NCBI GenBank assembly: GCA_947259315.1
Contig: CAMYLR010000023.1
Location: 1-64,000 of the forward strand
Source: an uncultured Gemmatimonadales bacterium
Lineage (GTDB): Bacteria; Gemmatimonadota; Gemmatimonadetes; JACCXV01; JAHWKZ01
DNA length: 64,000 nucleotides
Reading direction: 5' to 3'
Of this stretch, positions 2,406 to 60,754 are shown one piece after another. The notes under the pieces are model-generated. The model saw nothing but the letters and a program-made list of their open reading frames with translations. It did not search any database and was not told where the DNA came from. The position numbers and the translations under genes were made by a program. How positions within the stretch are numbered: position 1 is the first letter of the stretch; each line of letters begins with the position of its first letter.

Positions 2406-3294
2406 GTACTTCCTCTCTCTCGTTCCTATGATCTTCAATGAGCTCGGCCACCTTCTTGTGGCCCTCACCGCGCACGCGATCGGGGACCAATTCCAGCGCG
2501 ATCGCACCCAGTGCACGGTACAGCTGACACACCTTTGGATATGGCGCCAAGGCATCCAGCTGTTCCCGAACGGTTTTGACGTCGCCCCGAGCCACCGGTC
2601 CGGTCAACGCTTGGTCGGGCAACTTCGTGGCCAGATTCGCGTCGGTTTGGCCCGCCAGCGGAGCGATCAAATCACGCGCCGTCTCGGCGTCGATCCCGGC
2701 CTGTAGCAACAGCACCGCCGCGGCCGCATCGAGTGCCACCCGACCGTTGGCGACGAACACGAGCGCCGCATGATACAGCGGCTTGTTCTCCGCCGCGACG
2801 TGTATAAAGCGCAAATCGAGCGTTTCGGTAAACGCTTCGAGCACGGTGACCGCCGCCTCGTCGCCCTCGATCACGACGATCGCACCGGCCAGCGCATCCG
2901 GGTCGCTCTCTGCGCCACGGAGCGTCATCGCCGGGTGCCACGAGCCGCACGCCACCCCGCCCTTGGACAGTGACTGCAAGAGGCTCGCCGGATGGGCGCC
3001 CGCGCAGTGCGCCACGACGGCGGGGCGCGGCCCGGTGGCTCGACCCAGCCGCTCGGCGGTGGCGCAGATCGCGTCGTCGGGCACCGCGATCAGCCACAGA
3101 TCGGCGCGGATTGCCGGCGGCTGCGCGTTGATCGCCACATCGAACCCCTCGGCCAGCGCGGCCCGCCGCGGCTTGAGCGGGTGCGGGTTCCAGAGCCCGA
3201 CGACGTCGACGCCTCGCTTGCGCGCCAGATTGGCGATCGCCAACCCGACGCGACCGGCGCCATAGATGAACACCGACGGTGCCTTTGTCGTCAC
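2371..3294 (-). CDS. Rossmann-like / DUF2520 domain protein
   Basis: 307 residues. The N-terminus has the dinucleotide-binding glycine motif GAGRVG (12-17), followed by a Rossmann-like domain to about residue 120 and a mostly helical C-terminal half with the features of the DUF2520 family (CGSWHPAMTLRG, then NKPLYHAALVFVANG). Such proteins resemble ketopantoate or pyrroline-5-carboxylate reductases, but the physiological substrate is unknown. The GTG start at 3294 overlaps the stop of hflX as GTGA, and the end overlaps the HD-domain gene by 35 nt, so the three genes are probably translated together. Confidence 0.75.
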   Translation of the reverse strand: MTTKAPSVFIYGAGRVGLAIANLARKRGVDVVGLWNPHPLKPRRAALAEGFDVAINAQPPAIRADLWLIAVPDDAICATAERLGRATGPRPAVVAHCAGAHPASLLQSLSKGGVACGSWHPAMTLRGAESDPDALAGAIVVIEGDEAAVTVLEAFTETLDLRFIHVAAENKPLYHAALVFVANGRVALDAAAAVLLLQAGIDAETARDLIAPLAGQTDANLATKLPDQALTGPVARGDVKTVREQLDALAPYPKVCQLYRALGAIALELVPDRVRGEGHKKVAELIEDHRNEREEVHANASRHSRER

Positions 3295-4536
3295 CCAACC
3301 TCCTCGACCCGAAACCCGCTTTGCTCGATCCGAGCCACGACTTCGGGTCGCGTCTCGAGCTCGACCTCGACGACGGAGTCCGTGTAGCGGCGGTCGAGCA
3401 CGTCGCCCAGCTCGTGGAGCCGTGCCAGCGAACGCGTGTCGTTGAGCGGTAACGTAACGATCACGCGCGCCTTTCGCGCCTTGAGAAACTGGGTGAGCGC
3501 GTCGGTCAGCGCTTCCAAGCCGCGCGACTCGATCGCCGAGGCCATGACCGCGTTCGGGTAGTCGGCCACGACCTGCGCCCGCAAGCTCGCCCGTTCGCCC
3601 GCCGGAACGCGATCGAACTTGTTGAAGACGTGGATCATCGGCGCGTCCTCGGCTTCGAGTTCGACCAGCACGTCGCCGACGACGCGCATCTGATCGGCGT
3701 AGTGGGGATCGGAAACGTCGACAACGTGCAACAACAGATCGGCGTGGAGCACCTCTTCGAGCGTGGCCCGGAACGATGCCACCAGGTGGTGCGGCAGGTT
3801 GCGGATAAAACCAACCGTATCGGTCAGCAGGACCTCCTCGTCGTCATCCAGATCGATCCGCCGAGTGGTGGCGTCCAGCGTGGCGAACACCTTGTCCTCG
3901 ACCCGGAGGTGTTCGATTCCACGCGTCGTGACGGCTCTTGCGCTGGAGGCTCCGGCGCTCCTCGATGTGCGTCAGCTTCTCCTTGAGCACACCGATCCGG
4001 TGACGGATCACCCGCCGGTCGACCTCGAGCTGCGTCTCGCCGGGTCCGCGCAAGCCGATGCCGCCGCGGATCCGCGACAAGTGGGTCCACATCCGCCGCA
4101 ACCGCGGCAAGAGGTACTGCAATTGCGCCAACTCGACCTGGAGCTTGGCCTCGTTGGTTCGGGCGTGATCGGCAAAGATGTCGAGGATCAGCTCGGAGCG
4201 ATCGAGCACCCGAACGCCGACCAGGTCTTCCAGGTTCTTCCCCTGCGCCGGCGATAGATCGTTGTCGAACAGCACCAGCTCGGCATCGGCGGCGAGCACC
4301 TCTTCCTTTAGCTCGTTCGCCTTGCCGGCTCCGATGTAGTAGCGCTTGTCCGGCGCTTGACGGCGCTGAACGAGCTCGCCCACGACGGCGCCGCCGGCGG
4401 ATACAGCGAGCGCCCGCAGCTCCTCCAACAATGTCCGCTCCGACCATTGAACGCCGTCCTCGTTGGCGACCGGACCGCCGACCGCTACTAGTACGACGCG
4501 CTCGGCCACGTCGCTTGGTGAAACCTCGTACGTCAA
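3291..4536 (-). pseudogene. hflX: Ribosome-associated GTPase HflX, interrupted by loss of the P-loop segment with a frameshift
   Basis: HflX binds 50S subunits and rescues stalled ribosomes. Codons from the TTG at 4536 to about 3940 encode a normal N-terminal HflX domain (YYIGAGKANEL, LFDNDLSPAQGKNLED, then RIRGGIGLRGPGETQLE and an intact helix ending RRSLQRKSRHDA). The remainder, in another frame from about 3920 to 3291, encodes an intact rest of the G domain and C-terminal domain (VEDKVFATLDATTRR, G3 DTVGF, G4 NKFD). What should lie between, the switch from VALVGYTN through the Walker A GKST, is absent: roughly 59 bp (a length of 3n+2) are missing. Both flanks are well conserved, so this is either a very recent deletion or an assembly error. 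The TTG start overlaps the upstream mscS-type gene as TTGA. Confidence 0.88.
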
Positions 4537-6212
4537 GCTTCCACCTTCTCGGACTTAGGGTGGGCCTTGGGAATCGTCGTTGCGTTTCCGTCCCGTGTCG
4601 CGGCATAGAGCGGCGACAAGATCTCTATCCCCGCTTCCGCACACCGATCCTGAATGTTCTGGTGCAACTCCGAGTACGTGCGCGCCATCCTCTTCGCATT
4701 ATCCGTGTAAGCGTTGAGTTCATACACCACCGAGTAGTCATCAAGGCTCTTCTGAAGCACGAATGGCGTCGGATCCTCCTTAATAAAGTCGGTCTCTGTA
4801 GCCGCCGAGATCAGTGCCTCGTGCACCCTGCGCCAATCAACGTCGTACCCAATCGTCACCGTCGTATGAAGGATAAGCTTGCCCTCGCGCGCACTGTTCG
4901 AATAGTTGATGAGGTGACTTCCCACAACGAGCGAGTTGGGGATCGCGATCTCCTCGTTCTTGTTCGTTCGCACCCGGGTCACAAGCAACGTCTTCTCGAT
5001 CACATCACCAACCGTGTCGGCAATCTTGACCCGATCCCCGACATTGAATGGCCGCATGTAAACCATCACCGTGCCGGCCATCACGTTGGCCACCGCCGAC
5101 GCGGAGCCGAGCGAGATCAGGAGCGCTAGAAACGCCCCCACTCCCTTGAACGCAGTTGACTCGCTTTGTGGCATGTACGGAATCGTGACAATCACTGCGA
5201 GGGCGACGATCAAGATGCGGGTGAGCTTGTACGTTGGCTCGGCCCATTCAGGATGGAAGCCTTGAAACCGAATCCGCTCGTGTTCCAGTCCTTGAAATAC
5301 AAGATGGACGAGCCGAAGCAGGTACCGGGTCGCCAGAATGATGACTGCGATAAACAGGAGGTTCGGCAGGTATGACACGATGGCCGACGTCACGACGTCC
5401 ACCGGCGTCAGGACGTAATCGAGCCAATGAGTGGCGAGCGACCGCGTCCACGGAAAGAAGCTCAGCACGAGCGGCACGTAGAAGTACAGCAGTGCGAGCG
5501 TGATCAGAACTCGCGTCGCCCTGGCCCCAAGCAGCAGCGTCTCGACAACTTGACCCTTTGGCAACAGATCGAGGTTTTGGATCCGCAATGAGGGCAGGCG
5601 CTCGGGGCCGCGTTCGCGAATCGTCGTGTAGAGCCGTCGGAAAAACCGCTGCAGGAACCGGAGCAAAAAGACGAGGATCGCCGTCGCCAGCGCGGTCAGC
5701 CCCACACCCATCAGAATCGCCCGCCAGTTGGTGGCGATGGCCTGTTCGCGGAGCGCCTCATCTACGATACGAGCGTACCGCTCGGCAGCCTCCTGACGCG
5801 TCAGACCGACTGCGGCCGCGTCGCCGGGTGTGACCGTCATAACGACCAAGTCACCGATCATGAGATCTGACGTCTTCTCCCCATGGAAGACAGAGATCTC
5901 ACCCGGTCGGCGTATGGGATCGCGCGTCAGACTCCGGAAACGGCTCTCCAGGGCGCGTACCCGGGCTGCGGGTGGGAATGCACCGATCCGCTCGGCGATG
6001 TAGAACAGCGTGTCCCCGCCGACGACGACCGGCACGCGATCGGCGGCGTCGATGCTGAGTGTGTCCACGGTAGCGCCAAGCGTGTCGACCACAGCGCTCG
6101 TGTCCGATGCCGAGACGTTACTGCCGGTCTGGGAGAGCGCCTGACCCGGCGCCCATGCGATCAGCGTTGCGGCGAGAAGTAGCTCACTACCGCGATTCAG
6201 TGCAGCGATCAT
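4533..6212 (-). CDS. MscS-family mechanosensitive ion channel with periplasmic N-terminal domain
   Basis: 559 residues. A cleavable signal peptide (LLLAATLIAWAPGQALS, about 10-26) is followed by a soluble stretch to about 160, then TM segments near 165-190, 235-255, 285-310, 335-355 and the pore-lining TM near 370-400 (GAFLALLISLGSASAVANVMAG). The MscS beta domain follows (YMRPFNVGDRVKIADTVGDV, then NEEIAIPNSLVVGSHLINYS) and a C-terminal alpha/beta domain. It gates in response to membrane tension during hypo-osmotic shock. The ATG at 6212 overlaps the stop of rarA as ATGA; the same frame stays open upstream inside rarA but that part is antisense noise. The periplasmic domain of about 130 residues is longer than in E. 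coli MscS and has no recognised fold. Confidence 0.87.
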   Translation of the reverse strand: MIAALNRGSELLLAATLIAWAPGQALSQTGSNVSASDTSAVVDTLGATVDTLSIDAADRVPVVVGGDTLFYIAERIGAFPPAARVRALESRFRSLTRDPIRRPGEISVFHGEKTSDLMIGDLVVMTVTPGDAAAVGLTRQEAAERYARIVDEALREQAIATNWRAILMGVGLTALATAILVFLLRFLQRFFRRLYTTIRERGPERLPSLRIQNLDLLPKGQVVETLLLGARATRVLITLALLYFYVPLVLSFFPWTRSLATHWLDYVLTPVDVVTSAIVSYLPNLLFIAVIILATRYLLRLVHLVFQGLEHERIRFQGFHPEWAEPTYKLTRILIVALAVIVTIPYMPQSESTAFKGVGAFLALLISLGSASAVANVMAGTVMVYMRPFNVGDRVKIADTVGDVIEKTLLVTRVRTNKNEEIAIPNSLVVGSHLINYSNSAREGKLILHTTVTIGYDVDWRRVHEALISAATETDFIKEDPTPFVLQKSLDDYSVVYELNAYTDNAKRMARTYSELHQNIQDRCAEAGIEILSPLYAATRDGNATTIPKAHPKSEKVEA

Positions 6213-7492
6213 TCTTGCTCCTCGTCCTTCTTGAAAGGGTTTGGCCCTTCGTAGTAGACGCGGCCGCGCAAGCTGTCGGGGAGATGCTGCTGGTCGACCA
6301 CCGCGCCTTCGTAGTCGTGCGCGTACTGATACCCCGCACCGTAGCCCAGGTCCTTCATAAGCTGAGTCGGGGCGTTTCTCAGGTGTAACGGGACCGGCTC
6401 GCGCTCGGTCTCGCGGGCATCGGCGGCAGCGCGCTGATAACCGCTGTAGATCGCGTTCGACTTGGGGGCGATCGCCAGATAAACCGCCGCTTGGGCCAGC
6501 GCCAACGCGCCCTCGGGCATGCCGATGAAGTGGACCGCCTGCTGGGCGGCGACCGCCTGTGGCAGCGCGCGCGGATCGGCCAACCCGACGTCCTCGGAAG
6601 CGAACCGCACCAGCCTCCGCGCGATGTACAGCGGATCTTCGCCCGCCTCCAACATCCGCGCCAGCCAGTACAACCCCGCGTGCGGATCGGAATCGCGCAG
6701 CGACTTGTGGAGCGCGGAGATGATGTTGTAGTGCTCTTCCCCCGCCTTGTCGTAGCGGAGCGCTTTCTTCTGCAATGCGGCCTCGACCTGGTCGCGGGTG
6801 ATCGTCGCCCCATCGGCCGCCAGCGACGCCGCCAACTCCAGCGTCGACAGCGCCACCCGGGCGTCGCCCTGAGCGGACTCGCAGACGAACTCGCGGGCGG
6901 CGTCGTCGAGTGCCATATCCCGAGCGGCGAGACCGACGTCCGAGTCGTCCATCGCGCGATCGACCAACACCCCGATCTGTTCCGGCGTCAGCGACTCGAG
7001 CGTGTACACGCGGAGTCGCGACAAGAGCGCGGCGTTGATCTCGAACGACGGGTTCTCCGTGGTGGCGCCGATCAACGTGACGACGCCCTTCTCGACGTGG
7101 GGCAGGAACGCGTCCTGCTGCGCCTTGTTGAAACGATGGATCTCGTCGCAGAAGAGGATCGTGCGCTGACCGGTGGTACCGATCGTCTCGCGGGCTTGGG
7201 CGACGATCCGCTTGACGTCGGCGACACCCATCGTGACGGCGCTGAACCACACGAACCGCGACCCGGTGGCCTCGGCGATGATCCACGCCAGCGTCGTTTT
7301 TCCGGTGCCCGGAGGACCCCAGAAGACGAGCGAGTGGATCTCGTCGGCCTCGATCATGCGGCGCAATACCGCGCCCGGTCCGACCAGGTGGTCCTGGCCG
7401 ACAAACTCGTCCAACGATCTGGGGCGCAGTCGATCCGCCAGCGGCGCGGCGGCATCCAACCGCTCGCCAGCCAGCTGCTCGAAGAGGTCCAT
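6209..7492 (-). CDS. rarA: Replication-associated recombination protein A (RarA/MgsA AAA+ ATPase)
   Basis: 427 residues. AAA+ clamp-loader-like ATPase acting at stalled replication forks. Walker A WGPPGTGKTTLAW (about 58-70), Walker B FCDEIHRFNKAQQDAF, sensor 1 GATTENPSFEIN and the arginine-finger region ALLSRLRVYTLE are all present, followed by the MgsA C-terminal tetramerisation domain (HKSLRDSDPHAGLYWLARML, then IGMPEGALALAQAAVYLA). Full length for the family. The ATG at 7492 shares a base with the upstream TAA (TAATG). Identification is firm. Confidence 0.95.
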   Translation of the reverse strand: MDLFEQLAGERLDAAAPLADRLRPRSLDEFVGQDHLVGPGAVLRRMIEADEIHSLVFWGPPGTGKTTLAWIIAEATGSRFVWFSAVTMGVADVKRIVAQARETIGTTGQRTILFCDEIHRFNKAQQDAFLPHVEKGVVTLIGATTENPSFEINAALLSRLRVYTLESLTPEQIGVLVDRAMDDSDVGLAARDMALDDAAREFVCESAQGDARVALSTLELAASLAADGATITRDQVEAALQKKALRYDKAGEEHYNIISALHKSLRDSDPHAGLYWLARMLEAGEDPLYIARRLVRFASEDVGLADPRALPQAVAAQQAVHFIGMPEGALALAQAAVYLAIAPKSNAIYSGYQRAAADARETEREPVPLHLRNAPTQLMKDLGYGAGYQYAHDYEGAVVDQQHLPDSLRGRVYYEGPNPFKKDEEQE

Positions 7493-8373
7493 TAACTGGC
7501 CCGCGCCGTCTCCCTCGCTTTGGGATCGGGTTGGCCACCGGCGAGAACGATGGTGCGATCGAGAAGCCCGGCCAAAGTCTTAGCCGTGGCCCCGCTGGCG
7601 TCCCGATTGAGATCGTAGCGCGCCAACCCCAAGCACCGAATCGGTTGGTCCCCGAGCGCGTTCTCGATCGCCGCCACGAGATCGGCGGGCGTTAACGCGT
7701 TCTCGACCGTCTCGTCCGCCGCGGGTACGCCCTCAGGCTCGAGCACCGAAGCGTCGATGTGCACGTACCAACCGTCGACGTCGGTATCGGCCACGGCTGC
7801 GGTCAACCCCGACAGCGTATCCGGGCCGATGACGCGGATCCCGTCGTCGTCCAACGCTCGGGACTCGTCACCGTCCAGCCTTTGACCGCCGATCACGATC
7901 ACGTTGCGGCCCGACAGCTTGCACGGCTTGACGGCCATGCTGTCGCGCTGTTGGCGACCGGTCATCATCGCCAGCGTCGTCCGGTCGCGCTTTGGACGGC
8001 GGAAGAAACTGGTCGTCGCGTAATCCCCGCGCGGCGAAAACCACAACACGCCGGTGCGCGGTCCAAACCCGTCGACGACCCCCAGCGCGCAACCGTTGAC
8101 GAGGCTAAACACGACCGGGAAACGGCTGCGGTCCCACGCCGACAGCACCGCATCGCCGATCGCGCGCGCGTACGCCTCGGTAATCCGCGCTTCCGCTACC
8201 GGCTTCTCGAAGCCGAAGTCCTCGAGTCGCGCCGTCCACCCCAAGGGGCCCAGAAGATCGGCCAGCGTGCGCAACCCGAGCCCGCCGGGGCGATGATCTC
8301 CGTCGGGCTGTCGCACACCATCGCGCGACGGCATCGGCAGAAACTGCAAATGATCGACAAAACTCTTGCTCAT
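7492..8373 (-). CDS. Arginase/ureohydrolase-fold protein lacking canonical metal ligands
   Basis: 293 residues. The order of segments matches the ureohydrolase (arginase/agmatinase) fold: an N-terminal strand with DHRPGG, a central VFSLVNGCALGVVDGFG helix, a GVLWFSPRGDYATT strand where arginases carry the DAHxD manganese site, and a C-terminal WYVHIDASVLEPEGVPA strand where they carry DxDxxDP. At the first site the sequence is SPRGD rather than DAHGD, and at the second HIDASVLEP rather than the usual DxDxxDP. The binuclear manganese site therefore appears incomplete, so a non-hydrolytic or altered role is likely. It lies 26 nt downstream of mpg and overlaps rarA by one base. Family assignment is moderate; function unknown. 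Confidence 0.6.
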   Translation of the reverse strand: MSKSFVDHLQFLPMPSRDGVRQPDGDHRPGGLGLRTLADLLGPLGWTARLEDFGFEKPVAEARITEAYARAIGDAVLSAWDRSRFPVVFSLVNGCALGVVDGFGPRTGVLWFSPRGDYATTSFFRRPKRDRTTLAMMTGRQQRDSMAVKPCKLSGRNVIVIGGQRLDGDESRALDDDGIRVIGPDTLSGLTAAVADTDVDGWYVHIDASVLEPEGVPAADETVENALTPADLVAAIENALGDQPIRCLGLARYDLNRDASGATAKTLAGLLDRTIVLAGGQPDPKARETARAS

Positions 8374-8399
8374 CGGTATTTCGTCTCCATTCGGTATCG

Positions 8400-9038
8400 T
8401 CAGCTCATTACGGGGCTCGGCTCGGATGCCACTTCATGGTTGAGCCGGGTCCTAGAAACATAAGGCGATTCGGGGTCGAAGCACCGCCACAACCGTTCCG
8501 TGCCGACCTTGATCCCGACCCGCGGGCTCCACGCGATCTCGGCCGGCGGCACCCCGGCTTCGATCCACAACGTATCGCCGGTCAGGTCGAGACGGTTGTG
8601 CTCGAGCGTGAGCCCCAGCGCGTCGCAGAGCTTGCCGGGACCGTTGGCCAGGTCGCGATCGACGACCGGTGTACGACGCCTGGCCCGCGCGAAGCGACGG
8701 CCGCGCATGCGATCCAGCCCTTCGAGCGGCTCCAGCGCACGGATCAAAACCGCCGACGGCAGCCCCTGGGCTCGGGTCACTGCGTTCAAACAATAGTACA
8801 TCCCGTAGATAAGATAGATGTACGCGTGTCCCGGTTGGCCGTAAAGCACTTCGGTGCGCCCGGTGCGACCGGCAGCCGCGTGACACGCCGGGTCGTCCTC
8901 GCCCTGATACGCCTCGACCTCGACGATCCGACCGCTGGTCACGCCGTCGGGTCCAGCGTGGACCAACGTGCACCCCAAGAGCGCCGGTGCGACCTCGAGC
9001 GTGTCGCGAGCGTAATGGTCGCGCCCCAATCGGCTCAC
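8400..9038 (-). CDS. mpg: DNA-3-methyladenine glycosylase (AAG/MPG family)
   Basis: 212 residues. Excises alkylated purines in base-excision repair. Diagnostic segments are LLGCTLV at the N-terminus, the catalytic-glutamate strand IVEVEAYQGEDDPACHA, the intercalating-tyrosine region GHAYIYLIYGMYYCLN, PSAVLIRALEP and a C-terminal beta-barrel ending in SPRVGIKVG. The GTG at 9038 was chosen because it forms a GTGA overlap with the stop of cca and gives the usual family length; the reading frame further upstream is inside cca on the same strand and is spurious. Confidence 0.92.
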   Translation of the reverse strand: MSRLGRDHYARDTLEVAPALLGCTLVHAGPDGVTSGRIVEVEAYQGEDDPACHAAAGRTGRTEVLYGQPGHAYIYLIYGMYYCLNAVTRAQGLPSAVLIRALEPLEGLDRMRGRRFARARRRTPVVDRDLANGPGKLCDALGLTLEHNRLDLTGDTLWIEAGVPPAEIAWSPRVGIKVGTERLWRCFDPESPYVSRTRLNHEVASEPSPVMS

Positions 9039-10408
9039 GTGTGATTCACCGGCTGGAGTCCGGTCTGGTCGCGGACCATCTCCAACAGCGTCTCCCTGGT
9101 GTTGAGCGCCGGTTGCTCGATGACTTGTTCGAGCAACCACTCCAGCGTCTGACCGAACTCGGGCCCCGGCGCGAGCCCCATCGCCGCTAGATCGTTGCCA
9201 TCGATCGCCAGATCCTCGACGCGCAACGCGGTCTGCTGCTTGAGCACCCGGCGCGCGTGATGGTACAGGTCGACGATCGGCGTGGGCGGTCGCTCGGCGC
9301 GTTTGCGATTCCCGCGCCAGTCGGCGAGCTGGAGACGATACAGATCCCACAAGTGCTCCTCGCCTACGCGCCGGATCCAGCGCCGAATCGCAGCGTCCGA
9401 TACGTCCGGCGGGGGCAGGTCCATGTGCACCCGCACCAGATGCGAGGCTCGAGCGACCTCGCGGCGCGAGAACTTGAGCCGCCGCAGCGCCTGCCGGGTC
9501 AACCGCGCGCTCGGCACCTCGTGTTGCGGGAACGTCCAGTCCCCCGTCTCGGGGTGAACCTCGCGCGCCATCGGCTTCCCCAGATCGTGACACAGGGCGA
9601 CCACCCGCAGGAACGGTCGCCGGGGGTGCACGTTGTCGGCCACCAACAGCGTATGCACCCCAACGTCATCCGCGTGGTAGACGTTCTGCTCGACGCCAAA
9701 GCACACCGCCAGCTCGGGGAACAGGAGCGGCACTGCGCCGTACTGGCGCCACAGGCCCATGACCGACGACACGGAGCGACATTCGGCCAGCGTCTTCAAG
9801 AGCTCGTCCCGCACCCGCTCTCCCGAGAGGTGAATGACGCCCGCGGCGTGGCGCCCCAGTGCGCGCTCGGTCTCGGGTTCGATCTCGAGCCCAAACCGCA
9901 CCGCGAACCGAAACGCGCGCAAGACGCGCAGATAATCCTCCGGGAACCGTTGATCGGGTTCGCCGACGGCGCGAAGGACGCCAGTTTCGAGATCGCCGCG
10001 GCCATCGAACGGATCGATAACGGCGTCGCTCTCGAGATCCCAGGCGATCGCATTGATCGTGAAGTCGCGCCGCTCCAGGTCCTCCTCGAGCGTGGCCCCA
10101 AACCGGACCTCGGCGTGTCGCCCGTCGGTCGCGACGTCGGTCCGAAAGGTCGTGACCTCGATCGTCTCGTCCTCGGCTCGCACGCCGACGGTGCCGTGCT
10201 CGACCCCGATCGGGAAGGTGACCGGGAAGAGCGACTGGACGACCTCGGGGTGCGCCGCGGTAGCGACGTCCCAGTCGCCGACCCGCTCGCCACGCAGGCT
10301 GTCGCGCACGGCGCCACCCACGGCGTAGGCCGGGTGACCGGCCCCGACGAGCCGTTCCACGACCGCCCGCAGTCCGCGCGTTGGTTGCAGCAAGGTCGCC
10401 TGCTTCAT
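9035..10408 (-). CDS. cca: CCA-adding / tRNA nucleotidyltransferase with HD domain
   Basis: 457 residues. Class II nucleotidyltransferase that builds or repairs the tRNA 3' CCA end (poly(A) polymerase I relatives cannot be fully excluded). The head domain shows VGGAVRD (30-36), the catalytic DWD (45-47), RRDFTINA near 115 and EDYLRVLRAFRFAVRF; an HD domain follows (VVALCHDLGKP) and a C-terminal RNA-binding tail. The ATG at 10408 was chosen because it precedes the first conserved residues; there is no strong Shine-Dalgarno. It is divergent from rho. Confidence 0.9.
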   Translation of the reverse strand: MKQATLLQPTRGLRAVVERLVGAGHPAYAVGGAVRDSLRGERVGDWDVATAAHPEVVQSLFPVTFPIGVEHGTVGVRAEDETIEVTTFRTDVATDGRHAEVRFGATLEEDLERRDFTINAIAWDLESDAVIDPFDGRGDLETGVLRAVGEPDQRFPEDYLRVLRAFRFAVRFGLEIEPETERALGRHAAGVIHLSGERVRDELLKTLAECRSVSSVMGLWRQYGAVPLLFPELAVCFGVEQNVYHADDVGVHTLLVADNVHPRRPFLRVVALCHDLGKPMAREVHPETGDWTFPQHEVPSARLTRQALRRLKFSRREVARASHLVRVHMDLPPPDVSDAAIRRWIRRVGEEHLWDLYRLQLADWRGNRKRAERPPTPIVDLYHHARRVLKQQTALRVEDLAIDGNDLAAMGLAPGPEFGQTLEWLLEQVIEQPALNTRETLLEMVRDQTGLQPVNHT

Positions 10409-10441
10409 AGAGATAGAAATGTACCGACTCCCGGCGCCGGC

Positions 10442-10470
10442 TTGACACCCCACGCTGGCTGTGGTAATAT
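10442..10470 (+). promoter_or_regulatory. Near-consensus sigma-70 promoter upstream of rho
   Basis: TTGACA at 10442-10447 and TAATAT at 10465-10470 are separated by exactly 17 nt: six of six matches at -35 and five of six at -10. The predicted start near 10477 would give rho a leader of about 100 nt. This is the clearest housekeeping promoter in the window. Confidence 0.75.
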
Positions 10471-10578
10471 GCTCAATCGAGAGCAATTCTACGCCTCGAG
10501 TCCCCGTAATCCTTTTACAACGCAACCGGACACGGCCCAACCGCCGTTCCCTTCGCTCACCGCACAGAGGTAACCCAC

Positions 10579-11840
10579 TTGAATCGTTCCCGTTCCCGCG
10601 CTCCTCGCGCACGACATCACAAGCGCCCGCCGACGCCCGGTCCAAACGCAATCGTTATGGACATCGGCGAAATCAAGTCCAAGTCGATCCCCGAGCTCCA
10701 CGAAATGGCCGAGAAACTCAGCATCCAGAACTTCGCCGGCCTGCGCAAGCAAGACCTGATCTTCAAGATCGAGCAGAACCTGCTCGACAACGAAACCGTT
10801 CTGCGCGGCGAGGGTGTGCTCGAGATCCTACCCGAGGGGTACGGCTTCCTTCGGAGCCCGGATTGGAACTACCTGTACGGGCCCGACGACATCTACGTCT
10901 CGCCGAGTCAGATCAAGCGATTCGATCTCAAGACCGGCGATACGATCCAGGGGCAAGTGCGTCCGCCAAAGGAAGGCGAACGGTACTTGGCGCTGCTCAA
11001 GGTCGAGGCGGTCAACTACACCGATCCCGACAAAGCCAAGCACACCGTCTTTTTCGACAACTTGCGACCGCTCTACCCCGAGCAAGATATCCAGCTCGAG
11101 CGCAAGGACGGCGATCTGTCGATGCGGATCATGGACCTGTTCTCTCCGATCGGGAAGGGCCAACGCGGGCTGATCGTCTCGCCGCCCAAGGCGGGTAAGA
11201 CGATTCTGCTCCAGAAGATCGCCAACTCGATCACCGAGAATGAGCCCGACATCAAGCTGATCGTACTGCTGATCGACGAGCGGCCCGAAGAGGTGACCGA
11301 CATGGAGCGCTCGGTCGACGGTGAGGTCATCGCCTCGACGTTCGATGAGCCAGCCGATCGTCACGTCCAGGTCGCCGACATGGTGATCGAGAAAGCCAAG
11401 CGACTGGTCGAGAACGGTCACGACGTCGTGATCCTGCTCGACTCGATTACGCCCACGCGCTGCACAAGCCCAAGCGGTTCTTTGGCGCCGCGCGCAACAT
11501 CGAGGAGGGCGGCTCGCTGACGATCGTCGCCACGGCGTTGATCGACACCGGCAGCCGGATGGACGAGGTCATCTTCGAGGAGTTCAAGGGCACCGGTAAC
11601 ATGGAGCTGGTGCTCGACCGCTCACTGTCCGATCGCCGGATCTACCCGGCCATCGATATCAACCGGTCGGGAACGCGCCATGAGGAGCTGCTGATCCCCG
11701 AGGATCAGCTGCAGCGGATTTGGCTGCTGCGGAAGTTCTTGAACGATATGAACCCTGCCGAGGCGATGGAGTTTTTGATTGAGAAGATGAAGAGGACAGA
11801 CACGAATACCGAGTTCCTCGCCTCCATGTCCGGAGATTGA
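10579..11840 (+). pseudogene. rho: Transcription termination factor Rho, interrupted by an internal deletion with frameshift
   Basis: Hexameric RNA helicase that ends transcription. The first part encodes a complete RNA-binding domain ([10 protein letters not shown], then [10 protein letters not shown]), Walker [13 protein letters not shown] (about residue 201) and Walker [10 protein letters not shown] (11427-11452). The frame then shifts; from about 11455 another frame continues with [30 protein letters not shown] and a normal C-terminus ending at 11840. The family segment between, RLARAYNT through the Q-loop GKVLSGGVD, is missing: about 67 bp (3n+1) with AC as junction microhomology. The TTG at 10579 has AGAGG 8-9 nt upstream and gives an Arg-rich N-terminal extension; the ATG at 10657, at the start of homology, lacks a Shine-Dalgarno. 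An intact rho would be expected, so an assembly fault is likely. Confidence 0.9.
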
Positions 11841-11854
11841 CGGCCGCTCCTGGA

Positions 11855-11945
11855 GGTGCATCTCTGCGTTGCGCTCGTCGGGCTTCGCTGCGGCGTACCT
11901 ATCAGTACGCCTCGCTTACCCTCCTCCCGCGCCTTGATCTGCACC
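11855..11945 (+). repeat. Palindromic intergenic element, copy 1 (inverted relative to copy 2)
   Basis: Lies between rho and ruvX. The outer arms GGTGCA (11855-11860) and TGCACC (11940-11945) are complementary, and the centre is a perfect 7-bp stem GGCGTAC/GTACGCC (11892-11898, 11905-11911) with a 6-nt loop. Its reverse complement aligns along nearly its whole core with the element at 18204-18327 (shared blocks GATCAAGGCGCG, CGAGGCGTACTGA, GGTACGCCGCAG, GCAACGC). It is probably a structured 3'-end or terminator-like dispersed repeat. Confidence 0.8.
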
Positions 11946-11991
11946 ACCAATAACGGCCTAAAACCAAGACCTGCCGAGAGTAGCGTTGCAA

Positions 11992-13433: not shown

Positions 13434-13436
13434 GAC

Positions 13437-13451
13437 CTAGCCCTGGGCTAG
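13437..13451. terminator. Short perfect inverted repeat at convergent gene ends (possible weak terminator)
   Basis: CTAGCCC, one T, GGGCTAG: a 7-bp perfect palindrome containing the stop codon of the minus-strand dehydrogenase and lying 3 nt past the mltG stop. There is no T-run, so termination activity is uncertain. Confidence 0.35.
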
Positions 13452-14492: not shown

Positions 14493-14517
14493 GCGCCAGA
14501 GACGCCCGTTGACGCCG

Positions 14518-16302: not shown

Positions 16303-16379
16303 GCTATGAGCTCCTTTCAACGATCGTCCGATATCAGAAGGGGATTGGCTCGAAAGCTTAGGAATGCCGCGCGCGACTG

Positions 16380-17348: not shown

Positions 17349-17468
17349 GGGTCTAACGTAACCCGGTGAGCCGCCGTTGACCGGGGCTTGAGAGGCGAAA
17401 CCCGGAGCCGGCCGGCGTCGTAGGGAGTAGCAGAGCTCATCACGTGATCACACCATGCGGAGGTACCG

Positions 17469-18185: not shown

Positions 18186-18203
18186 CGCTCCACTCCTTTT
18201 CCG

Positions 18204-18327
18204 ATAGGCTTCACAGGGAAGCTCAGATCAAGGCGCGCGACGAGGGATGACCGAGGCGTACTGAAAGGTACGCCGCAGGGCGGCACGAGGAGTGCAACGC
18301 GGATATGTGCTTTCTTGTGAAGCCTAT
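18204..18327 (+). repeat. Palindromic intergenic element, copy 2, spanning convergent gene ends
   Basis: A perfect 12-bp outer inverted repeat ATAGGCTTCACA (18204-18215) / TGTGAAGCCTAT (18316-18327) encloses a core with the central stem GGCGTAC (18255-18261) / GTACGCC (18268-18274). The core is homologous to copy 1 at 11855-11945 in inverse orientation, while the outer arms have an unrelated sequence. The right arm contains the TAG stop of iscS, so it may work as a bidirectional terminator for the GIN-domain gene and iscS. Confidence 0.82.
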
Positions 18328-32995: not shown

Positions 32996-34333
32996 CTACT
33001 CGGCGGCCCGTCCGTTGGACTCGAGGTCGACGCGATCCCCTGGATCGGGCACCGACGCGCGCCAGCCCAGCTCGTCGCCGAGACGGGTGACCAGCGCCGC
33101 CGCTGCGTCGGGTTCGCCGTGCACGGCGTAAGCGGCCTGGGGCGGCCGGGTCGTTGTGCCAAGCCACTGCATCAGCTCGTTGCCTCCGGCGTGCGCCGAC
33201 ATGCCGTGCAACGTCTCGACGGTCGCGCGCACCGGAACCTCGTCATGGAAGATGTAGACAGTACGATCGCCGGAAGCGAGCTGATGGCCGCGCGTCCCGT
33301 GCGCCTGGTAGCCGACCATGAGCACCGTCGTCCGCGGATCCGGCAACCGCTTTCGCATGTGGTGCAGCACGCGACCACCGGTCACCATGCCGCTGGCCGA
33401 GATGATGATGATCGGCTCGTCGATCTCATTGATCGCCTTCGATTGCTTGCGGCTGCGAGCAAGGCGAAAGTCCGTGCAGCGCAGCGGTGTGTCCTCGGCG
33501 ATCACGCGCTCCCATGTCTTGTCATCGAACTCCTCGCGGTGACGGCTGTAGATATCCACTGCGTCGAGCGCCATCGGGCTGTCGACGAACGTCGGCAAGC
33601 AAGGGATCCGATTGGCGCGCTCGAGCTCGTTCAGCTGAACCATCAGCGCCTGGGTGCGGCCGATGGCAAACGCCGGCACGATCAGCGCTCCCCCGCGCTC
33701 TACCGCCGCCAGCACGACGCGTTCGAGTTGGTCGGCGACCGGCTCGTGATCGTGGACGCGATCGCCATAGGTCGATTCCGTGACCACGTAGTCGGCGTCA
33801 CCGATCGGATCCGGATCGGGGAGGATCGGCACCCCGAACCGCCCGATGTCACCCGAGAAGACGATCCTCGACCGGTCACCGTTCTCCTCGATGTCGAAGG
33901 CGACGAATGCAGCCCCAATGATGTGGCCGGCGCGATGGTACGTCGCGGTCAGGCCGTCACCGAGATCGATCGGCTCACCGTGCATGATCGACGTAGCGCG
34001 TTTGGCGGCGGCACGGCCCTCGTCAGCCGTGTACAGCGGCAGCGCCGGCTTGTGCGACGTGATTCCCTTGCGATTGCGGTAGCGCGCCTCCTCCTCCTGC
34101 AGCCCGCCCGAGTCTTCGAGCAGCACGCGGAGCAGATCGACGGTCGCCGGGGTCGCGTCGCCGAGCTGCATATCGACGCCCCGACGGGCCGCTACTGGAT
34201 CGTTTCGCTGACGCAGTTTCTTCGACCCCTGAAAGAGACCGCAGTCGATCAGGATCCGACGTCCAGCGGCCTCCAACAAGTGCTTGGAGCCGGTCACGAC
34301 CTTGGCCGCACCGATAAACTCGATCGTCGCCAT
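32996..34333 (-). CDS. Beta-CASP metallo-beta-lactamase-fold RNA hydrolase lacking the HxHxDH motif
   Basis: 445 residues, related to the CPSF/YSH1-like bacterial exonuclease/endoribonuclease group (TTHA0252-like). Present are FIGAAKVVTGSKHLLE, DCGLFQGSKKLRQRN, AGHIIGAAF, SGDIGRFGVPIL, beta-CASP motif A VTESTYGDR, SASGMVTGGRVLHHM, SAHAGGNELMQW (motif B) and VHGEPDAA (motif C). Between RQRN (near residue 50) and ATPATVDLL the family normally has the strand ending LTHAHIDH, the main zinc-binding motif. Here only about 15 residues separate these flanks, an apparent in-frame loss of roughly 28-32 residues. If real, the protein could not bind two metals normally. The start is 11 nt after queA. Confidence 0.85.
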   Translation of the reverse strand: MATIEFIGAAKVVTGSKHLLEAAGRRILIDCGLFQGSKKLRQRNDPVAARRGVDMQLGDATPATVDLLRVLLEDSGGLQEEEARYRNRKGITSHKPALPLYTADEGRAAAKRATSIMHGEPIDLGDGLTATYHRAGHIIGAAFVAFDIEENGDRSRIVFSGDIGRFGVPILPDPDPIGDADYVVTESTYGDRVHDHEPVADQLERVVLAAVERGGALIVPAFAIGRTQALMVQLNELERANRIPCLPTFVDSPMALDAVDIYSRHREEFDDKTWERVIAEDTPLRCTDFRLARSRKQSKAINEIDEPIIIISASGMVTGGRVLHHMRKRLPDPRTTVLMVGYQAHGTRGHQLASGDRTVYIFHDEVPVRATVETLHGMSAHAGGNELMQWLGTTTRPPQAAYAVHGEPDAAAALVTRLGDELGWRASVPDPGDRVDLESNGRAAE

Positions 34334-42331: not shown

Positions 42332-42344
42332 TGCCTGCCTCCCC

Positions 42345-43781: not shown

Positions 43782-43829
43782 AGTCTATCAAGCGATAGGA
43801 ACGAGCCCTCGCCAACCAGCGGGTCACGG

Positions 43830-46597: not shown

Positions 46598-46598
46598 C

Positions 46599-48188: not shown

Positions 48189-48264
48189 GGATTGGTGGCG
48201 AACTTGCCGGAGGGATCCGTCCTCAGCGGCGAATCCCTCCGGCAGACCTTAGTGCCTAATCCCT
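48187..48264. terminator. Nested inverted repeats, probable bidirectional terminator
   Basis: Inner stem GCCGGAGGGAT (48206-48216) with ATCCCTCCGGC (48233-48243), 11 perfect pairs and a 16-nt loop. Outer stem AGGGATT (48187-48193) with AATCCCT (48258-48264). The structure overlaps the end of the plus-strand oxidoreductase stop and contains the minus-strand EF-G stop at 48249-48251. No T-run. Confidence 0.6.
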
Positions 48265-50351: not shown

Positions 50352-50381
50352 AACATCTCCTTTCTCTATGTTATCGCGTGC

Positions 50382-52418: not shown

Positions 52419-53605
52419 CGAGCCTCCCCGGATTGGGGTCTGTTGGAGCTGGAGCGGATGGTTGCCGCTCGCTTCCGAAGATGATCCACCTGGACGAGGA
52501 TGTCGTCGATCGGCGGCGGCGCAGCGTTAGCGCCGGCCCAACGGTACCGAATCCGGCCGGACTCGTCCACGACCAGGATCTGGGGCGTACCGCCACCCCC
52601 AAAGTCGGCGCGGGCTTGATCCCTGTCAGGGGGGACGAGGATCGCGAACGACTGTGGCGGGCCGGCGGCGGCGGGATCACCCCCCAACCACACCCCGACT
52701 AGCGCCCCATCGCGGCGCCGCATCGCGGTCGCCAGTTCTCCGAGCCGGGTGGCGTAGCCCGGGCAACCGGTGCACGCCGCGTCCCAAAGCGCAAGCACCA
52801 GCGGGCGACCGATCAGAGCTCCGGTCGCAAGCGGCGGGCCGGTACGCCGCGGGTAAGCGATATCGGGCAGCGGGTCGCGGAGCGGTCGAGCCACCAGCAG
52901 TTGCTGGCGCTCGTCTTCGATCCGGGCACGCTCTGCCGCGCGCAGATCGTCGAGCCCCCGCAGCGAGCCGTGACGCCTCCGATACACCGTCTCGAGCGGC
53001 AGCGTGGCGCGCTCTCCAACACCGCGAACCTCGGCATCGAGGAACGCGTCGATCGCGTCATTCCACAGCCGGCGGGCGGCGTACACGCGTCCGAGGTGTA
53101 AGAAGTGCTCGGCGTAGCCGGTCGTCGTGCCACGGCTGTTGATCTCGGCAACCGCCGACACGAGGGCGGCCTCCGCCTGCCTCAGGTCCTGCTGACGGAA
53201 AGCGACCCATCCGAGCGAGTCCAACAGCCGTCCGCGGTAGGCGCGAAAATACCGGCCGGATGTCTCACCCTCTGGCAATAACTCTCGGTCCTCGAATTCG
53301 AGTCGGGCCAACCATTGCTGTATTTGTGTTTCGAGCGCGGGTAGCTCGCTTGATGGCAATGAATCAGCGGCGGCGGCGAAAACGTTCGACAAGCTGTCGA
53401 GATCGGGTGGCAAACGAACCGGTTCGGCGGGAACGACTTCAGGCTCGGGCTGGGGCCGGACACCAAAACACCCCACGCCGATCGCCATGCAGACAATCCC
53501 CAACGCGATCCACCCCCTCACAAGCCCGCTTGTCGGTCCACGTGGAGTCAGCAAGCTTTGGCGGTCATGCACACGGCGACGTCCATAGTCAGATCGCGAT
53601 TTCAT
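52415..53605 (-). CDS. Lipoprotein with TPR-like region and thioredoxin fold (TlpA-like)
   Basis: 396 residues. A long basic N-terminus precedes a hydrophobic segment ending in a lipobox cysteine (CMAIGVGC). Helical TPR-like region about 75-220 (SLGWVAFRQQDLRQAEAALVSAV, FLHLGRVYAARRLWNDAIDAFL), then a thioredoxin-like domain with the CxxC pair in WDAACTGCPGYATR and the strand PQILVVDESGRIRYRW. Probably periplasmic thiol-disulfide chemistry or scaffolding. The start is uncertain: ATG at 53605 lacks a Shine-Dalgarno, and a GTG near 53523 would give a normal-length signal peptide. Confidence 0.72.
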   Translation of the reverse strand: MKSRSDYGRRRVHDRQSLLTPRGPTSGLVRGWIALGIVCMAIGVGCFGVRPQPEPEVVPAEPVRLPPDLDSLSNVFAAAADSLPSSELPALETQIQQWLARLEFEDRELLPEGETSGRYFRAYRGRLLDSLGWVAFRQQDLRQAEAALVSAVAEINSRGTTTGYAEHFLHLGRVYAARRLWNDAIDAFLDAEVRGVGERATLPLETVYRRRHGSLRGLDDLRAAERARIEDERQQLLVARPLRDPLPDIAYPRRTGPPLATGALIGRPLVLALWDAACTGCPGYATRLGELATAMRRRDGALVGVWLGGDPAAAGPPQSFAILVPPDRDQARADFGGGGTPQILVVDESGRIRYRWAGANAAPPPIDDILVQVDHLRKRAATIRSSSNRPQSGEAR

Positions 53606-53649
53606 CGAGGGACGGTGACGATAGCCGAGCCCACCGCCGGCGGCCAAAC

Positions 53650-54573
53650 GTGAGACGCAAGACGACACTAATCCTGCTCGCGGCGCTGCTCGTGCTGGTG
53701 GTCGCGCTCTGGCGCTATAGCACCCGCGATTATCGACCTGTGTTCAGTCGCGCCGCTGGGGAGCTCATTCAGGTCCGCGATTCGACCGGCTTCGGCCGCG
53801 CCGAAGACGGCAAGCAGTTGACCGAGGTTACGTTGGTCAGCGACACCGGTCTCGAGGTGCGGGTACGTGTTCGCGCTACCGGCGAACGCACCGGTACGCG
53901 CTACCCGGCTGCGCTGATGGTTGGTGGGATGAGGACCGGTCGCGAGACGGTCGATGTCCCCCTCGAGACTGAGAACTTGGTCCTGGCCAGCGTTGACTAC
54001 CCATACGACGGCCCGATTTGGCCTGAGGGATGGCAGTGGGTGCGGTATCTCATTCCGCTTCGGCGCGGGTTTCTGGAGACGCCCCCGGCGTTGCTTCTGG
54101 CGGCGCAATACCTGTACACCCGAGATGACGTCGACCCCGAGCGGGTGTCGATTATCGGTGTCAGCCTTGGGGTCCCGTTCGCGGCCGCTACGGCAGCGAC
54201 CGACCGCCGGCTAGCAGGTGCCGCGCTGCTGCACGGCGGTGCCGACATTCGCCGCATGGCGTACTACGCCTATGCCGATGAAGGACCCGCCTGGGTGATG
54301 AACGGTTTGGCGCTCGTGACGGCGTGGATGGTGGCGCCGCTCGAGCCCACCAAGTACGCCGGTGAAATCGCGCCGCGCCCGACGTTGGTCGTGAACGCCA
54401 CCGACGACAAGCGCGTCGACCCGCAGAGCGGCGATCGGCTACAACAGGCGGTGCGCCAGCCAAAACGGGTCATCTGGCACGAAAGCGGTCATGTTCACCG
54501 CACTCAAACGGAGATCGTGGTCGAGCTCATGGAGATGACGCTCGACTGGATGGACGCCAACGGGCTGAGATGA
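53650..54573 (+). CDS. Membrane-anchored alpha/beta hydrolase
   Basis: 307 residues. N-terminal hydrophobic anchor (LILLAALLVLVVALW, 6-20). Alpha/beta-hydrolase core: nucleophile elbow IGVSLG (GxSxG, near 175), acid in NATDDKRVD and histidine in ESGHVH. Function unknown; esterase or dienelactone-hydrolase-like. GTG start at 53650, divergent from the lipoprotein gene with only 44 nt between. Confidence 0.78.
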   Translation: MRRKTTLILLAALLVLVVALWRYSTRDYRPVFSRAAGELIQVRDSTGFGRAEDGKQLTEVTLVSDTGLEVRVRVRATGERTGTRYPAALMVGGMRTGRETVDVPLETENLVLASVDYPYDGPIWPEGWQWVRYLIPLRRGFLETPPALLLAAQYLYTRDDVDPERVSIIGVSLGVPFAAATAATDRRLAGAALLHGGADIRRMAYYAYADEGPAWVMNGLALVTAWMVAPLEPTKYAGEIAPRPTLVVNATDDKRVDPQSGDRLQQAVRQPKRVIWHESGHVHRTQTEIVVELMEMTLDWMDANGLR

Positions 54574-54712
54574 GGCCCATTTGACGCAGGTTGACGCCAG
54601 ACCGGGTAGACGGCGACATTCATTACCCGTTCAGGCGCCCCCCCTGTGTGTTCCTGGACGACCGGCTCGACGACGACTCTTTTTTCGAACCCGGACCCCG
54701 GAGGTCTCCCGC

Positions 54713-55048
54713 ATGCGGTTTTTGAAGCTCTTTCCCGTTTTTGCGTTTGTTGCGCTGTTAACGGTCGGCGCCTGTCAGCAGGCTCAGGACGCAGCCGACA
54801 GCGCCACCGACGCCATGGACGACGCGGCCGCTGAGGTCGAAGGCATGGCCGATGAGGGCATGGACGAGATGGAAGGCATGGCGGACGAAGCCATGGACGA
54901 GATGGAAGGCATGGCGGACGAAGCCATGGACGAGATGGAAGGCATGGCCGACGACGCCATGGACGCGGCCAATCCGTGCAATCCGTGCGCGGGCAATCCG
55001 TGCAGCCCGGACGCGACTAACCCCTGTGCGGGCGACGACTCGCCCTAA
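54713..55048 (+). CDS. Small lipoprotein with tandem Met/Asp/Glu repeats and Asn-Pro-Cys tail
   Basis: 111 residues. Signal peptide LLTVGAC with lipobox cysteine near 21; then an Ala/Asp-rich helix, three and a half copies of an 11-residue unit GMADEAMDEME, and a C-terminal cysteine-rich tail with four NPC motifs (NPCNPCAGNPCSP, then NPCAGDD). The amphipathic acidic helix and clustered cysteines suggest metal binding or a structural spacer; function unknown. GGAGGT lies 8 nt before the ATG. Followed by a strong terminator, so it is probably monocistronic. Confidence 0.82.
   Translation: MRFLKLFPVFAFVALLTVGACQQAQDAADSATDAMDDAAAEVEGMADEGMDEMEGMADEAMDEMEGMADEAMDEMEGMADDAMDAANPCNPCAGNPCSPDATNPCAGDDSP
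54842..54967 (+). repeat. 33-bp tandem repeat inside the small lipoprotein gene
   Basis: Three complete 33-nt units (54842-54874, 54875-54907, 54908-54940) and a 27-nt partial unit. Units 2 and 3 are identical to the base while unit 1 and the partial unit differ at a few bases, indicating recent unit duplication. In-frame, so copy number can vary without disrupting the protein. Confidence 0.9.
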
Positions 55049-55080
55049 CGCGGAGGCGCGCGATTATCGCGTAACGTTCG

Positions 55081-55115
55081 AGCGGCCGTCCTTTTCGGGA
55101 CGGCCGCTTTTTTTT
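55081..55115 (+). terminator. Strong intrinsic (Rho-independent) terminator
   Basis: 11-bp perfect stem AGCGGCCGTCC / GGACGGCCGCT with loop TTTTCG, followed by an uninterrupted run of T residues to 55115. It lies 32 nt past the small lipoprotein gene and 26 nt before acs. Confidence 0.93.
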
Positions 55116-55141
55116 GGTAGCTCAAAACGAGATCGAGGGCA

Positions 55142-57090
<1,949 letters not shown>

Positions 57091-57094
<4 letters not shown>

Positions 57095-58146
57095 CCGCCG
57101 CGGCGCGAAGCCAACACTTCGAGCGCCGCGTCGATCACCGCTGCGGGCTCCGGGTCGGTGAAGGGATCGAGACCGGCCCGGGTCCGCCGCGGCCAATGGC
57201 GAGCCTCGGCGCCAGCGACGGCCACTCCCGGCAGGTGTTCCGCCGGGCCGTGAACAGCGGCGCTCGAGCGTCCAAAGACCGCTACCACGGGTGTTCCGAC
57301 CAACCCCGCGAGGTGCATCGGGCCGGTATCCATCCCGATGAACAAGTCACACCGGGAGAGCAGGTATGTGAGCTCCCGAATCGTCGTCGGCGGGATCAGG
57401 TGCGCGTCGCCGAGTGCGTCGGCGAGCGCCTGGGCCTCTTGTTCTTCCGCTGGGCCCCAGCCGATCAGCAACGTGCCGCCGGAGCGCTGTTTGATTTCGC
57501 GCAGCGCCGCTTCCAGCCGAGCCGGGTCCCACCGCTTGTGGCTGCCACTGACGCTCGACCCGGGATACGCCAACAACCAGGGTCGCGTTCGGTCACGGAT
57601 CGTCTCGAGGAACTCATCAATGCGCGACCTCTCCTCGGAATCAAACTCAGGGCGGGCGGCGACGACATCCGGCACGTCGAGCCACTCCACCAGCGAGCGG
57701 TGTCGAAGATGGCGGTTGACGTCTTTCGCCGCCGGGTAGCGCAGACCGTGATACCAAAGCCAGGCGAGGTTACGCGCGTGACCGGGACCCCAACCGACGC
57801 GCACCCCTCGGCCACCCGCCGCGACCGCCCACACCGCCCCCTTCAACATCCCCTGGAAGTCGAGCACGAGATCGTAACCCCGCGCGCGCATACGCGACCG
57901 TAATTGCCACGGATCACGCGACAGTATCTCTCGCCAGCGTCTGAACGGGACGACAAAGAGCTCGTCGATCTGGGGGTGACCGCGGAGCACATCGGCGGCC
58001 TTCGACTGCACCACCCAGTCGATCTCGGCGTCGGGAAACTTCTGCCGCAGGCCGTTCAGCATCGGCAGCACGCGCGCCACGTCACCGATCGAGCCCAGCC
58101 GGACGATCAGGATGCGGCGCGGATCCGCGGGTAGCGCACGAAGCAT
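57091..58146 (-). CDS. Family 9 glycosyltransferase (heptosyltransferase-like)
   Basis: 351 residues. [20 protein letters not shown] at the N-terminus, [42 protein letters not shown] and the ADP-sugar-binding [24 protein letters not shown] are diagnostic of GT9 (WaaC/WaaF/RfaF). Usually adds heptose to lipid A-Kdo in LPS core assembly; the acceptor here is not determinable. ATG at 58146 precedes the conserved start. Divergent from pdxS by 58 nt. Confidence 0.88.
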
Positions 58147-58204
58147 GGCGGGAAGGTACTTGGCACTCTGAAGGACGTGTATCTTTGTGGCCAGGAGGCA
58201 CTGC

Positions 58205-59095
58205 ATGAACCAGCGCGAAACGGGAACGATCGAGGTCAAACGCGGTCTCGCCCAGATGCTCAAGGGCGGAGTCATCATGGACGTGACCACGGTCGACATG
58301 GCGAAGGTCGCCGAGCAGGCCGGCGCGGTCGCGGTGATGGCGCTCGAGCGTGTCCCGTCGGACATCCGCGCCGGCGGTGGCGTGGCTCGAATGGCCCCAG
58401 TCAGCAAGATCAAGGAGATCGTTGCCGGGGTGTCGATCCCGGTCATGGCCAAGTGCCGCATCGGTCATTTTGTCGAAGCGCAGATCGAGGAAGCGTTGGG
58501 CGTCGACTACCTCGACGAATCCGAGGTGCTAACGCCCGCCGACGAGGCGCACCACATCGACAAGCACGAGTTCACGATCCCGTTCGTGTGTGGGGCGCGC
58601 GACCTGGGTGAGGCGTTGCGCCGGATCGGTGAAGGCGCGGCGATGATCCGCACCAAGGGCGAGCCCGGCACTGGCAACATCGTCGAAGCGGTGCGGCACC
58701 TGCGGATGATCCGGGCGCAGATCAGAGACCTTGCGACGCGTCCGGCCGAGGAGCTGCTGGTAGCCGCCAAGGAACTGCGCGCACCACTCGATCTGGTGGA
58801 GGAGACCGCGCGGACCGAGCGGTTGCCGGTGGTCAACTTCGCCGCCGGCGGGGTCGCCATCCCTGCTGACGCCGCGCTCATGATGCAACTCGGCGCCGAC
58901 GGAGTATTCGTTGGCTCGGGCATCTTCAAGTCCGAGAACCCAGCTGCTTTCGCGCGCGCGATCGTGCTCGCGACCACGCACTACGATGATCCCGACATCC
59001 TGGCCCGCGTCTCCGAAGAGCTGGGCACCGACGCGGCGATGGTGGGGCTCGAGCGACTGACCGAAGAAGAGCTCATGCAGATCCGCTCGACTTGA
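58205..59095 (+). CDS. pdxS: Pyridoxal 5'-phosphate synthase lyase subunit PdxS
   Basis: 296 residues. TIM-barrel that makes PLP from ribose 5-phosphate, glyceraldehyde 3-phosphate and ammonia. [17 protein letters not shown] with the first catalytic Asp, [14 protein letters not shown] with the Schiff-base lysine, [11 protein letters not shown] with the second lysine, and [34 protein letters not shown] about 6 nt before the ATG at 58205. Overlaps pdxT (TTGA). Confidence 0.97.
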
Positions 59096-59688
59096 GCGCC
59101 CGCCCCACGATCGGCGTGCTCGGCGTGCAGGGCGACGTTTCCGAGCACATGGCGGCGGTCGAGCGAGCCGGTGGTACCGCACGCAAGGTCAAGCGTCCCG
59201 ATGAATTAACTGACGTCGCCGGCCTCATACTCCCTGGCGGCGAGTCGACGACCCACCGTCGATTGCTCGACTACGAAGATCTGCTATCGGCGATCACCGA
59301 TCGTTACCGCGACGGGATGGCGGTCTTTGGCACGTGCGCTGGGGCGATCCTGTTGGCGACCGAGGTTCTCGGCGCGCCGACGCCCCACCTCTCGCTGGTC
59401 GACATCACCGTACGGCGAAACGCGTTCGGCCGTCAGCGCGAATCGTTCGTCACCGATCTCGACGTCGCCGGGTTGGACGGCGGGCCGCTGAGAGCGGTGT
59501 TCATCCGCGCACCGATCATCGAGCGGGTCGGTCCCGGGATCGACGTGCTGGCGACCGTCGATGGCGAGATCGTCCTGGCCGAGAGCGACCGCGCGTTGGT
59601 CGCCGCCTTCCACCCCGAGCTCACCGCCGACGATCGATTGCACAAGCGCTTCCTGGAGAAGACGGCCACGGCCGAGGTGGCACGCTAG
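59092..59688 (+). CDS. pdxT: Pyridoxal 5'-phosphate synthase glutaminase subunit PdxT
   Basis: 198 residues. Class I glutaminase feeding ammonia to Pdx[23 protein letters not shown], the nucleophile motif [10 protein letters not shown], and the His-Glu pair in [11 protein letters not shown] start at 59092 overlapping the pdxS stop. Full length. Confidence 0.96.
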
Positions 59689-59705
59689 CGGCTCCGGCTG
59701 AGGGG

Positions 59706-59905
59706 CCACTACCTACCGTCCCAGGGGCTTCTTCCCCACAGACAGCTGACAGTCAGCCGGTTACGATTAGACACGAGTGGGTCGAACCGATTCCGGGCGC
59801 TTGGAACCCTCGTGGTCACCCTGGCGAGACCACACCCCGGCCGGTCTCTCAGCCAATTACGACGCCGCACTCGACACCATGTGCCCCACCGTGGGGATGC
59901 GAATT
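59706..59905. other. Non-coding spacer with two small hairpins before the Icmt-like gene
   Basis: About 200 nt without a supportable gene. Contains GTGGTC/GACCAC (near 59812-59835, 10-nt loop) and CCCCAC/GTGGGG (59884-59896), the latter covering the GGGG that would serve as Shine-Dalgarno for the ATG at 59906. Possible translational control or chance; no riboswitch class is recognised. Confidence 0.35.
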
Positions 59906-60454
59906 ATGCTGACTTACTTGCTCGCTTTGACGCTGCCAGTTGCAGCAACTGCGCTGCTATATGCCCGATACGAGTATCGCAAGCGAGGCAAATTGACGTT
60001 TCTTGGGCTGGCGCTGCTTTGTGCGATGTTATTCGTCCCGAATCTGGTGATTGAATTCGCGACTACGTATGCGATGCCAACCACATTGCTGGACGGCATG
60101 GGTGTCATGGTTGGTATTGTCGGTATCGTCTTGTGCCTGCGTGGCGTCATCGCGTTTCGCTCGCTGCCCAAGGTTCTCTGTTTAGATCCAGGCGAGCTTG
60201 CGGAGGCCGGACCATACCGTTGGAGCAGGAACCCGCAATACGTCGGCTGGTTTCTGTTCCTACTGGGTTTCGCTCTCAATGACTGGTCGATATGGTGTCT
60301 TGGAGCGTTGCTCGTTGTTCTGATCAGCTTGCACTTTCTTGTATTGATAGAAGAAGAGCATCTGCGCCGTATTTTTGGCTCACAATACGTCGAGTTCTGC
60401 CGTCGAACGCCACGCTATCTGGGTTGGGGGCCTTTAAGGTTGACGAGCTCATGA
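59906..60454 (+). CDS. Isoprenylcysteine carboxyl methyltransferase (ICMT)-like membrane protein
   Basis: 182 residues, four to five TM helices. The C-terminal signature RWSRNPQYVGWFLFLLGFAL, then EEEHLRRIFGSQYVEFCRRTPRYL (SAM-binding H/E/R residues), matches the ICMT/PEMT-like family of membrane methyltransferases; bacterial substrates are mostly unknown. The ATG at 59906 has GGGGA about 8 nt upstream; ATGs at 59897 and 59879 are alternatives. Codon use is visibly more AT-rich than in neighbouring genes, hinting at transfer. Confidence 0.75.
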   Translation: MLTYLLALTLPVAATALLYARYEYRKRGKLTFLGLALLCAMLFVPNLVIEFATTYAMPTTLLDGMGVMVGIVGIVLCLRGVIAFRSLPKVLCLDPGELAEAGPYRWSRNPQYVGWFLFLLGFALNDWSIWCLGALLVVLISLHFLVLIEEEHLRRIFGSQYVEFCRRTPRYLGWGPLRLTSS

Positions 60455-60754
60455 ACGTTTTCTTCTATGGTCTTTTCATGGATGAAAACCTGCTCGCCGA
60501 GAAAGGAATTACTGCAAGCAATCCGGTCGTCGGATTCGTCTGTATGCGGACAGTAGTGTCGCGGACTTGTACCAGAATCGGTCACCATCGAATTCGCGGA
60601 CGGAAGTAACGCCGAAGCCAGTTGCTACAACCTACCCGACAACAAGGTCACCGGGACCAATAAGATTTATGCAGATTCGTTACTCAAACTGGCAACCCGA
60701 TTGAATTTGCCTGCGCCGTACCTAGACCAAATCAGGCAGGCGGGACGGCCGTAG
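60451..60754 (+). pseudogene. Gamma-glutamylcyclotransferase-like gene, internally deleted and frameshifted
   Basis: The ATG overlaps the previous TGA (ATGA). The N-terminus MNVFFYGLFMDENLLAEKG and GFV are typical of a small gamma-glutamylcyclotransferase-like family of about 130 residues. The middle, normally DGFxLRIGERATL and following strands, is missing (about 35 residues). The end is readable only in other frames: LYADSSVAD near 60542-60567, then after an apparent 1-nt loss VPESVTIEFADGSNAEASCYN and YLDQIRQAG to the TAG at 60752. As it stands, the gene is non-functional. Confidence 0.8.

Follow-up and report, generated by a model that had tools for sequence, protein, structure and literature searches.

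Short motif-removing losses in a metagenome-assembled Gemmatimonadota genome are most probably local assembly errors

In this study we asked why four genes on one stretch of bacterial DNA each lack a short internal block that carries a recognisable motif: have these bases been lost in the cell or in the assembly? The stretch, referred to here as the window, comprises the first 64,000 nucleotides of one contig (C23:1-64000) of a metagenome-assembled Gemmatimonadota genome of 2.40 Mb in 33 contigs. We compared the window with G001, the nearest relative within the genus (~85% identical at DNA level), as well as with three genomes of the same family and up to 60 relatives from the class. Rfam and tRNA scans of the whole window were empty. 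A preliminary description had proposed that rho, hflX, a beta-CASP hydrolase gene and a gamma-glutamylcyclotransferase-like gene each lost one block centred on their best-conserved nucleotides, either through collapse of community-shared sequence during assembly or through an excision mechanism specific to this genome. Judged from the assembled sequence, the losses are very probably local assembly or scaffold-join errors.

The transcription terminator gene rho (10579..11840, plus strand), recognised by its Pfam domains Rho_N, Rho_RNA_bind and ATP-synt_ab, is broken at 11450|11451 (junction 11450..11451), where alignment to relatives places 67 absent bp. The missing length is identical in comparisons with G001, G002 and G003, and in a search of 40 relatives the matches break off and resume at the same point of the query, where the relatives have additional sequence of similar length. 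The missing bases held the Q-loop. Because 67 is not divisible by three the gene is frameshifted: the upstream frame runs to a stop at 11520, and the true C-terminal frame ends at 11840. Both parts are still under constraint, with dN/dS values of 0.06 before the junction and 0.04 after it. A second rho-like gene lies elsewhere in the same genome (C6:182839-183612) and is 67% identical to the broken one; a second, weaker rho match is also found in G002 and in many class relatives. In the window we further noted a dispersed repeat of ~80 bp, REP- or MITE-like and matching both strands, at 11859-11945 and again at 18221-18300. At each of these two sites ~100 bp are absent from G001, and dozens of copies of the repeat occur in G002.

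A similar picture is seen in the GTPase gene hflX (3291..4536, minus strand), where 59 bp are absent at 3915|3916 (junction 3914..3916), again with identical length against G001, G002, G003 and G004. These bases held the P-loop. The Pfam MMR_HSR1 match on the C part of the gene starts only at profile position 31. As 59 is not a multiple of three, this gene is frameshifted too, the N part lying in one frame and the C part in another. For the part before the junction dN/dS is 0.11-0.23 and for the part after it 0.24-0.34; a DNA search of the same genome found no further hflX copy.

The two other genes of the window do not fit the description of one simple loss per gene, even though an internal block with the named motif is gone from all four. 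In the beta-CASP / metallo-beta-lactamase RNase-like gene (32996..34333, minus strand), identified through its G001 orthologue and a distant relative, the lesion replaces one sequence by another: for the 118 nt of G001 there are 43 nt here, a net change of -75 that stays in frame. The HAHIDH segment, an instance of HxHxDH, has thereby disappeared, and the 43 nt standing in its place are unrelated in sequence. The G001 orthologue and the distant relative (44% identical) both carry HAHIDH at the same spacing. On the plus strand the filler, at 34157..34202 (~45 nt), reads with its flanks GRVAELHIDAPTGRYWI. We found no other copy of it in the same genome, no exact 39-mer of it in GTDB genome contigs and no significant match among plasmids; an inverted match of 10 nt between filler and lost block has a P of about 0.05. 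The gene, too, is constrained, with a dN/dS of 0.02 before the lesion and 0.11 after it. The AIG2_2 / gamma-glutamylcyclotransferase-like gene (60442..60754, plus strand) lacks ~106 bp directly before 60540 and carries in addition a separate 1-bp frameshift near 60561-60570, ~20-30 bp downstream of the junction. Its C part gives a weak Pfam AIG2_2 match, below the curated cut-off, and the missing IGxRATL segment is present in homologues from six class genomes.

Are such losses confined to the window? We screened ~1.8 Mb of the assembly (~75% of the genome) against E. coli K-12 proteins and retained only frame-changing events with conserved flanks, so that in-frame losses elsewhere may have escaped. 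The screen yielded a fifth seamless loss, in murD at C11:135706, of 47 bp against E. coli and ~52 bp against G002. The missing stretch is present in G002 and G003, dN/dS is 0.29-0.33 before the junction and 0.23-0.24 after it, and a DNA search of the same genome found no further murD copy. The murD gene is essential in bacteria that make peptidoglycan, and its loss would for this reason be hard for a living cell to carry. Of the E. coli ORFs, ~170 had homologues here, universal genes being numerous among them, and a seamless frameshifting loss was seen only in rho, hflX and murD. At four losses in the 64-kb window against one in the other ~0.4 Mb of homology-covered sequence, the rate is higher inside the window than elsewhere, which counts against the assembly reading, although the window was chosen for its losses. 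Applying the same detection to ~240 kb of G002 gave no comparable seamless loss, so that the losses here exceed what chance would give. An initial in-frame screen against G002 returned many events that proved spurious (antisense or low-complexity) and was dropped. Between two convergent genes of the window, at 48190-48239, G001 has ~87 bp more, which may be natural or another loss.

The same assembly also contains marked gaps of similar size. Its runs of N measure 20, 32, 35, 41, 42, 52, 58 and 139 bp, and three of them lie inside ddl, sucC and a gspF-like gene, where their lengths deviate from the homologues by about -10, +31 and +32 bases; such disagreement is expected if gap sizes were estimated inexactly. 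Within homology-covered coding sequence, seamless frameshifting losses are about as frequent as N-gaps (three each). None of the four junctions in the window contains an N, a point that counts against the assembly reading.

Taken together, these observations support the assembly explanation of the preliminary description in its broad form. The bases are missing from this assembly only, and the relatives keep the stretches in the comparisons made for hflX, rho, the beta-CASP gene and murD. In these same four genes the coding sequence flanking the lesion on either side is under purifying selection (dN/dS 0.02-0.34 overall), one of the genes hit is essential, and the losses resemble the N-gaps in size. 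We infer the following course, in which the wrong join as the cause and the assembler step responsible are both deduced. Short stretches, from tens of bases to ~110, would have been left unassembled at several places. A positive estimate of the gap size would have led to a run of N; at the lesion sites the ends would instead have been fused with nothing or only a stray tail between them, and real bases dropped. The second frameshift in the AIG2-like gene and the unrelated filler in the beta-CASP gene would be expected if the contig ends were of poor quality. The genes hflX, rho, murD and the beta-CASP gene are therefore probably intact in the organism.

A narrower version of an assembly fault, as originally proposed, is that sequence blocks which many members of the community have in common were collapsed in the assembly graph, with the most conserved nucleotides dropped preferentially. 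It would account for the recognisable motif in each lost block of the four window genes, and the blocks of rho and hflX do exceed the medians of their own genes in conservation (sliding-window DNA identity, 19-24 relatives). However, they rank just 23.8% (rho) and 25.6% (hflX) from the top of the gene, and the murD block lies near its gene median while the more conserved P-loop of that gene (TGTNGKTTT) is intact, so that the losses are not centred on the best-conserved nucleotides. Moreover, words of 27 nt or more shared with class relatives, which in this test took the place of the actual community, are absent from every lost block, whereas retained parts of rho do contain such words. It also speaks against preferential loss of shared sequence that only rho, hflX and murD were hit seamlessly and out of frame among the ~170 ORFs with homologues. 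We consider this collapse improbable. The apparent motif targeting is better explained by ascertainment, because a reader without tools spots losses only where a recognisable motif vanishes. Hairpins or GC extremes causing a coverage dropout were considered as well and rejected, the lost blocks being spread across the background range.

It might also be possible that the deletions are real and recent, the genes being young pseudogenes in a lineage that is losing genes. The rho paralogue could make the loss of one rho tolerable, many bacteria can do without hflX and the AIG2-like gene, and the latter carries two lesions. Yet a second lesion was seen in that gene only, the four genes tested remain constrained on both sides, murD is hit as well, and the lesions fall into one narrow size class that matches the N-gaps of the assembly. 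This reading we regard as distinctly unlikely. Even less credence can be given to a process of the lineage by which real cells lose blocks of 50-110 bp from genes that otherwise function, the products being either rescued or dispensable. Last, a genome-specific mechanism excising short blocks at conserved motifs can practically be set aside. The only hint of it is that several losses which remove motifs cluster in one window. Inspection of the junctions revealed neither a shared sequence nor a terminal repeat, hairpin or GC signature, the lost lengths are unequal (47-52, 59, 67 and ~106 bp, and 118 nt exchanged for 43), the blocks are not maximally conserved, and an essential gene is affected.

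A frameshift or a missing domain in this genome should not be taken for a biological feature. Unlike N-gaps, short seamless losses are unmarked in the sequence; they are compatible with a high completeness score, which for this genome is 95.8% despite them, and can mimic the loss of a motif. Pseudogenes of reductive evolution offer one comparison, since there, too, genes that can still be recognised carry frameshifts and internal deletions; they differ from the present case, in which both sides are constrained, an essential gene is affected and lesion sizes are narrow. Local assembly errors of the kind suspected here have been described by Chen et al. 2020 (PMC7111523), who suspect IDBA-UD to be prone to them and who corrected 13 local errors in a single genome of 1.13 Mb. 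According to these authors, errors left uncorrected lead to incomplete or incorrect gene and protein sequences in databases (PMC7111523). Their criterion is that no read supports the consensus, whereas the present case was judged from assembled sequence alone. In other respects the present case is like the errors they report in metagenome-assembled genomes, with short wrong consensus stretches or joins lying in good sequence and giving incomplete or incorrect proteins (PMC7111523). The losses likewise resemble the scaffolding gaps of metagenome-assembled genomes, with N-gaps in the same assembly and intact versions of the genes in relatives.
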